Shown: piece after piece, positions 5,246 to 28,690 of the stretch
Layout of the letters: the number at the start of each line of letters is the position of its first letter
Position numbering within the stretch: the stretch's first letter is position 1
Origin: Enorma burkinafasonensis
GTDB taxonomy: Bacteria > Actinomycetota > Coriobacteriia > Coriobacteriales > Coriobacteriaceae
Length of the DNA: 33,899 nt
Direction of reading: 5' to 3'
Assembly (NCBI RefSeq): GCF_902150035.1
Contig: NZ_LR597516.1
Location: 1-33,899 of the forward strand
Made by a program: the position numbers and the translations under genes
The notes under the pieces: model-generated
Seen by the model: the letters and a program-made list of their open reading frames with translations, nothing else
What the model was told of the DNA's origin: nothing
The model's database searches: none

Positions 5246-6298
5246 ATGGAACTGATCAAGAACTACCGGTCGCTCTGGAAGGGCGTGCTCATGTGCCTCG
5301 CCATCGCGGTCCCGGCATGGCTGCTCGGCAAGCGCTTCGAGGTCGTGGGCGGCCCGGTCTTCGCGATCCTTATCGGCATGGGGCTTGCGCTCGCGGTTCC
5401 CGCGAAGGCGGGCGCCCCGCTGCAGCCGGGCGTCAAGTTCACCTCGAAGAAGATTCTGCAGTACGCCGTCATCCTCTTGGGGTTCGGCCTCAACCTGGGG
5501 CAGATCGCGCGCGTGGGGGCGACCTCCCTGCCCATCATCGTCTCGACCATCGCCACGTCGCTCATCGTGTCGTTCGTGCTCTGCCGCGTCATGGACATCC
5601 CGTCGAAGATCTCGACGCTCATCGGCGTGGGGTCGTCCATCTGCGGCGGCTCGGCGATCGCGGCGACCGCGCCGGTGATCGACGCCGACGACGAGGAGAT
5701 CGCGCAGGCGATCAGCGTCATCTTCCTCTTCAACATCATCGCGGCCCTGGTGTTCCCCGCGCTCGGCGGCATGCTCGGCCTGACGAACGAGGGCTTCGGG
5801 CTCTTCGCCGGCACTGCGGTGAACGACACCTCCTCGGTCACGGCGGCGGCCGCCGCCTGGGACGGCATGCACCCGGGCGCCAACACGCTCGACAGCGCGA
5901 CCATCGTAAAGCTCACGCGCACGCTCGCGATCATCCCCATCACGCTCGCGCTCGCGTTCTGGCAGGTGCGCCAGGCCAAGCGCTCCGCCGAGGCGGGTGA
6001 GGGGGCGGGCGGTGCCGCCGGGTCCTTCGACCTCAAGCGCATCTTCCCGTTCTTCATCCTCTTCTTCGTGCTCGCGAGCGTCATCACTACGGTTTTCGCC
6101 CTGCCGGCCGAGGTGACCGCCCCCATCAAGGAGCTGAGCAAGTTCTTCATCATCATGGCCATGGCCGCAATCGGCTTCAACACGGACATCGTCAAGCTCG
6201 TGCGGACCGGCGGCAAGCCGATCCTCATGGGGGCGTGCTGCTGGGTGGCGATCGCCGCGGTGAGCCTGGGCATGCAGCACGTGCTCGGGATCTGGTAG
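5246..6298 (+). CDS. yeiH: YeiH/UPF0324-family putative sulfate-exporter-type membrane protein
   Basis: This 350-residue protein has about ten hydrophobic helices. Its family hallmarks are [17 protein letters not shown] (about residues 132-148) and [17 protein letters not shown] (about 189-205), with AIGFNTDI near the C-terminus. The family (Cons_hypoth698, UPF0324) is annotated as putative sulfate exporters, but the true substrate is not settled. The start ATG follows AAAGG by 7 nt. A soluble Ala/Gly linker near residues 250-265 separates the two helical halves. It is divergent from the YeiE-like regulator, which fits a role in sulfur oxyanion handling. A GC hairpin ends the unit. Confidence 0.88.
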
Positions 6299-27734: not shown

Positions 27735-27962
27735 ATGGGGCTGGATAGCAATAGCGAAGCAAAGACACACGTCGAGGCGGGGGTGCGCAGCGGGGCGGGT
27801 GGCCCGTCCAGCGGTGTGCGCTCGGCACGGAGCTCTGCGGGAGCGTCCGCACCGCGCGATCCGTTTATCCGTGCCGAGAACGAGGATGACGACGGTTACG
27901 ACCCTTATTCGGACCGTCGTCCCGACCCGGAGCCGCTCTTCGAGCGCGATCCGTGGAGCTAG
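27735..27962 (+). CDS. Small Ser/Ala-rich protein with acidic C-terminal tail
   Basis: This 75-residue protein has no hydrophobic segment. Residues 1-45 are low-complexity (Gly, Ser, Ala, Arg), and residues 50-75 form a conserved-looking acidic end (AENEDDDGYDPYSDRRPDPE then PLFERDPWS). The ATG at 27735 follows GCGAGG. The intrinsically disordered look, with a fixed tail, suggests a short binding motif. I recall similar small tails only in Collinsella-type genomes and know no function. It is divergent from luxS and is followed by the phased repeat array. Confidence 0.6.
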   Translation: MGLDSNSEAKTHVEAGVRSGAGGPSSGVRSARSSAGASAPRDPFIRAENEDDDGYDPYSDRRPDPEPLFERDPWS

Positions 27963-28020
27963 CGCTTGCCTGCGGCCGATTTTCCTTGGGGTTCTCTCAG
28001 CACGCCTGCTCTCTCCCATT

Positions 28021-28202
28021 ATTTCTGAGTCGCTTGGAAAACTTCTGAGTTGGTCAGAAAAGTTCTGAGTCCTCTAGCGCCATTTCTTACAACGAAACAT
28101 GTCGCTATACGACTCAGAAGTTAAGTTGCCTACTCAGAAGTTCAACGCGCGACTCAGAAGTTTGCAGCCCTGCTCAGAAGTTCGACGTGATGTTTAGAAG
28201 AT
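28021..28202. repeat. 20-bp-phased array of TTCTGAGT / ACTCAGAA repeats in two opposite blocks
   Basis: TTCTGAGT begins at 28023, 28043 and 28063, exactly 20 bp apart. After a 41-bp gap its reverse complement ACTCAGAA begins at 28112, 28132 and 28152, then GCTCAGAA at 28172 and a decayed TTTAGAA at about 28193, again on a 20-bp step. The right-hand units extend to ACTCAGAAGTT. Spacers between units differ. It lies between the stop codons of two convergent genes. Confidence 0.85.
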
Positions 28203-28206
28203 TGCC

Positions 28207-28608
28207 CTAGCGGTCGAGCTCCGCGCGGCACATGCCGTCGAGGATGGCGACGGCGATCGCGAGGATGAGGGTGAGCAGCGCGACCGAGGGGATGCCCTGG
28301 CCCAGGCCGGCGACCACGATGGTCAGGATCGCGAAGATCGCGGTGATGATGGCGAAGAGCCGGTGGCTGCCCAGGCGGCTCGGGCGGTTGGCGCCGTGGA
28401 TGCCCATGATCGCAGTGATGATCGTGAGCACGCCGCAGGCGCCGTAGAGGAAGTTGTCGGCGTACATGAGGATGACGCCGGCGATACCGGCCTCCTCCTC
28501 GGCGAGGGCGGTGCCGCTGCGGGCGATGACCGCGAGGAAGATCGCGCCGAGCGCGACGATGATCTGGATGAAGCTCAAGATCTTGAGCGACTTGCAGTTC
28601 TTGGACAT
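28207..28608 (-). CDS. Small four-helix membrane protein
   Basis: This 133-residue protein has helices near residues 8-28, 43-65, 80-100 and 103-125, and an acidic loop (ALAEEEAG) after the first. The ATG at 28608 follows AAGGAG; the longer frame would add a leader across the promoter. It starts MSKNCKSLKILSFIQIIVAL, a positive-inside N-terminus. It is a Coriobacteria-type hypothetical with no domain I can name. Its promoter (28662-28690) is overlaid by a 7-bp inverted repeat, so it is probably regulated by a dimeric factor. Confidence 0.8.
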   Translation of the reverse strand: MSKNCKSLKILSFIQIIVALGAIFLAVIARSGTALAEEEAGIAGVILMYADNFLYGACGVLTIITAIMGIHGANRPSRLGSHRLFAIITAIFAILTIVVAGLGQGIPSVALLTLILAIAVAILDGMCRAELDR

Positions 28609-28651
28609 GGATGCTCCTTGCAAACGGACGGTGCGCCTGGGCGCTGTCGTA

Positions 28652-28690
28652 CAAACCACGCATTATGATACATGGTTTGAGCTGCGGCAA
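28652..28690 (-). promoter_or_regulatory. Promoter and inverted repeat of the four-helix protein gene
   Basis: On the minus strand TTGCCG (plus 28685-28690) and CATAAT (28662-28667) are 17 bp apart. CAAACCA (28652-28658) and TGGTTTG (28673-28679) form a perfect inverted repeat across the -10 and spacer, a typical repressor site. Confidence 0.6.

Follow-up and report, generated by a model that had tools for sequence, protein, structure and literature searches.

A mirrored, helically phased repeat array in Enorma burkinafasonensis with the probable character of a dispersed REPIN-like element

The gap between two convergent small genes of Enorma burkinafasonensis is filled by an array of short sites set in mirrored blocks. 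We consider, with a probability of about 55%, that this array is a solo copy of a REPIN-like element that is dispersed between genes and whose units are bound by an AbiEi-like protein. It is a member of no known family and probably represents a hitherto undescribed kind of small element, selfish or regulatory. Sequence comparisons within the genome and with its relatives established that such arrays form families with a conserved centre and conserved phasing, and that sister arrays stand beside AbiEi-like genes. Explanations by Tn7 ends, by CRISPR, by a pure RNA hairpin or by chance are disfavoured.

Layout and setting of the array

The array extends from 28020 to 28202 of the window, by which we mean the whole stretch of 33,899 nucleotides analysed. 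With units called at 11 or more matches out of 13 bp to CNACTCAGAAGTT or its complement, three TTCTGAGT units make up the left block on the minus strand: an outer unit (28020-28032, TATTTCTGAGTCG on the plus strand) with two mismatches to CNACTCAGAAGTT, a middle unit (28040-28052) with none and an inner unit (28060-28072) with two. Opposite to them, beyond a palindromic centre, the right block holds four exact ACTCAGAA units and a decayed one on the plus strand, at 28110-28122 (CGACTCAGAAGTT), 28130-28142 (CTACTCAGAAGTT), 28150-28162 (CGACTCAGAAGTT again), 28170-28182 (CTGCTCAGAAGTT, one mismatch) and 28190-28202 (ATGTTTAGAAGAT, five mismatches). The left units are of the AACTTCTGAGT type and the right ones of the ACTCAGAAGTT type. 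In each block, units follow one another at a step of exactly 20 bp; the 7-bp spacers bear no likeness to one another, and the two inner cores lie 50 bp apart, centre to centre. The strict phasing in two mirror blocks and the unrelated spacers announced in a preliminary description of this DNA are thus accurate, as is its count of four or five right units, four of which carry CTCAGAA while the fifth is degenerate.

Two features had escaped that description. The outermost units are decayed, and the centre (28073-28109) is an inverted repeat as well, with boxes at 28073-28084 (AATGGCGCTAGA, read on the minus strand) and 28098-28109 (CATGTCGCTATA, plus strand) placed about an axis base at 28091, which is also the dyad axis of the whole element (arm identity 40/60). 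The left box keeps the axis distance found in three sister arrays, and the GAAACATGTCGNTAT of the right box is exactly shared with the sister array at G000:C25:87983, G000 being the genome of the window itself. In a scan of about 1.88 Mb (84%) of this genome, the assembly of which has 48 contigs, for mirrored phased arrays of any motif, the window array scored 11 and local shuffles never exceeded 8. The earlier dismissal of CRISPR holds: 13-bp units and 7-bp spacers in inverted blocks stand against repeats of about 23-50 bp, spacers of similar length and cas genes. ACTCAGAAGTTAAG, which we take to resemble 5S rRNA, was set aside as a coincidence, the extension being present in one unit only.

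The gene that ends into the array (27735-27962, plus strand) encodes a small conserved protein with homologues in 66 of the 67 family genomes, where it bears a conserved acidic tail, ENEDDDGYDPYSDRRPDPEPLFERDPWS; searches of Pfam and NCBIfam gave no match to it. The convergent gene on the other side (28207-28659, minus strand) encodes a small predicted membrane protein. Several relatives have the same pair around a short gap without the array, often with an ordinary GC-rich hairpin terminator. A repeat at which the assembly breaks is indicated by translated HLHHSFNWENAAPGARIGPRGRSVNCGSVPSAQCVRLGSEINL, which occurs at two contig ends, in the window at 164-1129 and at the close of contig C38 (L474 6039-6275).

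A convergent terminator was already raised as a possibility in the preliminary description. In its fuller form, this reading makes the array a bidirectional terminator or RNA hairpin at which both convergent genes end and which stabilises their messengers. Folding is much stronger for both strands than for shuffled sequences (z -5.6 and -4.9), and relatives place a terminator hairpin in the same gap. However, the long stem is not followed by a U-tract and the spacers are free. An intrinsic terminator being a GC-rich hairpin followed by a U-tract, one weak site was found within the array, on the minus strand. Rfam matches in the window were limited to two tRNAs, the array itself giving no match to a structured-RNA family. 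We regard this reading as improbable, also in view of the arrays of a relative described below.

Families of mirrored arrays

At periods not divisible by three, real scores in the genome scan reached 14 and shuffled ones stopped at 8. Three families emerged, with steps of 20, 21 and 31 bp. The 20-bp family comprises four arrays, namely that of the window and those on G000:C25 near 87,980, C13 near 85,089 and C22 near 16,034. All four carry SATGTSSNWATA at +7 to +18 from the dyad axis in both arms, AATGGCGCTAGA in the left arm of the window being the most divergent copy. When each array in turn was left out of a centre search over the 1.88 Mb, the held-out array ranked first among all axes in three cases and second in that of the window. 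Additionally, GAAACATGTCGNTAT occurs exactly twice in the 1.88 Mb, each time at an array centre. The four arrays share their step and differ in their units, which read CGACTCAGAAGTT in the window, GGGTTCRCAG, and GCTCCAACAGGAT in the last two (C13 and C22).

The 21-bp family, with TGCACCTAAC as its unit, counts eight arrays, all eight with innermost units 57 bp apart, and its centre is palindromic with CCTGCGGGT-type ends. The 31-bp family, built of TACGATA and TGCA sites, has at least five arrays. All 17 arrays of the three families were judged intergenic, including one flagged as possibly inside a gene after the simple gene caller had extended an AbiEi-like reading frame upstream. Seven of the 17 lie in convergent gaps (counting the window, which the caller had misfiled), as against 17% of background gaps. 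Possibly a further family is represented by a cluster at the end of a gene (G000:C22, L455 about 5840-5980), in which CTAACGAC/TCGTTAG sites point either way.

The unit motif of the window is far more restricted than the architecture. Perfect matches to the 11-mer ACTCAGAAGTT number four in the 2.23-Mb genome, all of them within the array, and exact and relaxed searches of 67 family genomes, 398 class genomes, plasmids and phages gave no second TTCTGAGT array, nor was one present among the matches listed from public contig collections. The same 7-mer belongs mostly to plain tandem repeats in other genomes. The relaxed search of the class surfaced phased arrays of other motifs. Because this search itself selected in part for similarity to TTCTGAGT, that similarity was not counted as evidence. 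The preliminary description had named an absence of other occurrences as an observation that would speak against it. Such an absence is true of the unit motif and untrue of the architecture: three further copies of the centre exist in the genome, and step and centre length are fixed in every family measured.

Two clusters came up besides. One is a palindromic ACTCAGAA/TTCTGAGT cluster with 10- and 20-bp steps beside a terminator (L005/L218, G020:C5:79987-80042). The other, in a genome of the same genus, is a 31-bp mirrored array beside a Vsr-like gene (L219 1496-1815, G063:C63), whose innermost unit has GAGGACTCAGAACT in common with the inner left unit of the window.

The same architecture was found in a relative, G047, where inverted blocks of TGTCAGTRCTGAGT units at a 20-bp step occupy many intergenic places. 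All ten arrays measured have a 25-bp centre, most of them with CAA and TTG at its ends. In each block the three units nearest the centre are almost intact, and those farther out decay to random sequence. Matches to the pattern numbered 19 forward and 16 reverse in this genome and only three in its sister G048 (loci of the two genomes: L304-L309, L444-L446). G048 retains one array that is orthologous, its centre being the same and its numbers of units different. The two blocks of a single G047 array consist of different, non-complementary unit variants, from which it follows that base pairing is not what keeps them. Many copies also lie away from convergent 3' ends.

A Vsr-like gene sits between two of the G047 arrays and is related to the one beside the 31-bp array of G063; BLAST detected no relation between it and the AbiEi-like set treated below. 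ATPase_2-DUF234 proteins were considered as binders of the G047 unit and rejected, since their genes have a palindromic operator of their own, a common AAGATTATTC..TAGAATAATTCT..TAGAATAATCTTT just upstream (L344, L360, L361, L370). AAA_16 ATPase genes (L310, L327, L328, L330, L331, L333-L336, L340; G000:C27) are likewise preceded by A/T-rich arrays, one-directional and phased at 10, 18 or 19 bp with a motif that varies by clade, which are likely autoregulatory operators. They were rejected as kin of the window array, their motif similarity being built into the search and their arrays running in one direction.

Helical phasing, mirrored blocks and a spread from the centre also recall a centromere-like site, at which a filament-forming protein would bind to maintain the chromosome, in segregation, replication or nucleoid organisation. 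Against it stand the presence of several unrelated motif families in one genome, copy numbers that differ strongly between sister species, and the AbiEi-like genes adjoining arrays. We hold such a role to be extremely improbable.

AbiEi-like genes and a proposed mode of action

Four AbiEi-like genes were found in the fetched part of the genome, and three of them adjoin arrays, each of a different family, at distances of 28, about 240 and about 280 bp. One (L456:1582-2562) stands between arrays of its own family, and another (G000:C22:14748-15737) lies about 240 bp from a sister array of the 20-bp family; for the 31-bp and 20-bp families, genes were assigned purely by adjacency. The fourth gene is preceded by an inverted repeat, GATATGGACGGA ... 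TCCGTCCATATC. As the first gene was noticed through its adjoining array, the remaining three were used to estimate chance: by our own estimate, two of these three would adjoin an array with a probability of roughly 5e-4. The Collinsella aerofaciens homologue (36% identity) has two palindromic units on one side and four on the other; they belong to an element present at 27 places in a 900-kb record. In C. aerofaciens NZ_OY725717.1 (L504, L506), successive GTCTCGATCTGTAAC half-sites within a cluster point in opposite directions and are spaced at exactly 42 and 38-39 bp.

The proteins are predicted to combine a winged helix with the residues of a DUF559-like PD-(D/E)XK fold. Five AbiEi-like proteins have E216, D250, E264 and K270 invariant, the pattern to be expected of that fold. 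The similarity to AbiEi is modest (best E 2e-8) and the Pfam match to DUF559 marginal (E 0.022), which weighs against the preferred reading. Domain searches gave AbiEi and this marginal DUF559 match and no transposase domain; no solved structure matched the proteins, and no viral contig encoding AbiEi-like or Vsr-like proteins was found. AbiEi and Rv2827c recognise 23-bp inverted repeats, two and four in number, at the promoters of their own genes (PMC7319586), and binding of the units by the AbiEi-like protein is on this account the most economical idea. Within a literature search of limited reach, no paper linked AbiEi or DUF559 proteins with dispersed palindromic repeats.

In the REPIN-like element that we propose, the palindromic centre has a fixed geometry and carries a block of short sites on either side; the two blocks are inverted, and their sites are spaced by whole turns of the helix. 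The units would bind the AbiEi-like protein, with its winged helix and DUF559-like nuclease domain, cooperatively and on one face of the helix, the product of G000:C22:14748-15737 being the candidate binder for the 20-bp family. Assembly would proceed from the centre outward along both arms, and an array next to an AbiEi-like gene would serve autoregulation. More speculatively, the nuclease domain may copy or move the element, leaving solo arrays in gene-free gaps such as that of the window. Units may multiply inside a block through local duplication, the outer ones then decaying.

The weakest point of this proposal is the unit sequence, which differs among the four 20-bp arrays and is awkward for a single binder; the protein may read mainly the centre, or units may co-evolve with different paralogues. 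The association of the G047 arrays with a Vsr-like gene of no detectable kinship to the AbiEi-like set also counts against it. Neither a target-site duplication nor a clean empty site was seen, relatives merely being without the array.

Mobility would not be needed if the arrays were static operators, insulators or silencers to which an AbiEi-like or another winged-helix regulator binds. AbiEi proteins are known to autoregulate through inverted repeats (PMC7319586), some arrays lie near promoters, and phased arrays, direct or palindromic, also lie upstream of the AAA_16 and DUF234 ATPase genes in these bacteria. Most copies, however, occupy promoterless gaps, with the convergent excess given above; solo copies are scattered without a common neighbour, and copies are many in G047 and few in its sister G048. 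Immobility seems rather unlikely to us.

The REPIN-like reading could be carried further, to a new mobile or self-propagating class in which AbiEi-like PD-(D/E)XK proteins propagate mirrored phased arrays in trans, with several families per genome and independently of HUH, DDE and tyrosine recombinases; we advance this only tentatively. If the reading is right, Coriobacteriia proteins filed under the AbiEi antitoxin family would gain a testable role as partners of dispersed repeats. The geometry of the bound complex would be open to direct testing through the fixed phasing, the fixed centre length and the decay of units towards the outside, and the array geometry could serve as a marker for strain typing and for counting the spread of repeats.

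Comparison with known systems

Tn7 and IS21 carry several phased transposase sites at each end, at steps of about 20 bp, and the mirrored arrays resemble them in having several sites at about this step. A remnant of such a DDE transposon, its terminal sites reduced to a MITE, would also account for elements that are short, inverted and dispersed. The arrays differ by lacking cargo and transposase and by conserving the centre rather than the tips. No tns genes were found in the 34-kb window and inspection gave neither TGT/ACA tips nor a duplication; no tns or ist genes occur at any array examined, whose flanking genes are housekeeping or AbiEi-like, and no istA/istB lies between repeats. IS21 ends were likewise rejected for the G047 family, which has no ist genes at its arrays and closes on its 25-bp centre. 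Phage and plasmid collections gave no related sequence, no target duplication was seen and the best preserved units are the innermost, not the outermost. We judge such a descent very improbable. The preliminary description, which had likened the array to Tn7-type ends and proposed a look for cargo between the blocks, was right in part: there is no cargo between the blocks, accompanying genes lying outside or between whole arrays, and the Tn7 analogy is given up, but a protein-binding array at the DNA level, with helically phased mirrored blocks, is supported by the sequence.

Foldback-type elements and MITEs have inverted arms of tandem subrepeats around a short centre. The arrays share this plan and differ in that neither a target duplication nor a link to a transposase was seen and that the subrepeats are short sites with unrelated spacers. 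Like BIME/REP clusters (PMC2817692, on REP-associated transposases), they place palindromic units, alternating or inverted, in 3' intergenic regions; whole-helical-turn phasing of units and mirrored blocks set them apart.

The operators of AbiEi and Rv2827c in type IV toxin-antitoxin operons (PMC7319586) are similar in that two to four inverted repeats lie beside the gene of a winged-helix protein of AbiEi type. Binding is cooperative there (PMC7319586), whereas for the present arrays we only infer cooperativity. Here, the C-terminal part of the protein is DUF559-like, no DUF1814 toxin was noticed next to the gene, the repeats are shorter and more numerous, and copies lie far from the gene.

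The closest parallel is that of REPINs and RAYTs, in which dispersed inverted elements have copies at the partner gene (PMC3116915). Both systems consist of short, dispersed, intergenic inverted elements with solo copies elsewhere; in both, copies cluster beside or flank the partner gene (as at the L456 gene, in C. aerofaciens and in G047), and several families per genome each have their own partner. They differ in the partner, which is AbiEi-like or Vsr-like and not a Y1 HUH transposase, and in the arms, which hold several phased units in place of the single REP of each REPIN arm, around a centre of invariant length. Membership of REPIN/RAYT is not supported because the partner is not a tyrosine transposase. 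A REPIN/RAYT-like way of working is supported, and AbiEi-like proteins, if this is right, would play for the arrays the role that RAYTs play for REPINs, by means of a different enzyme class.
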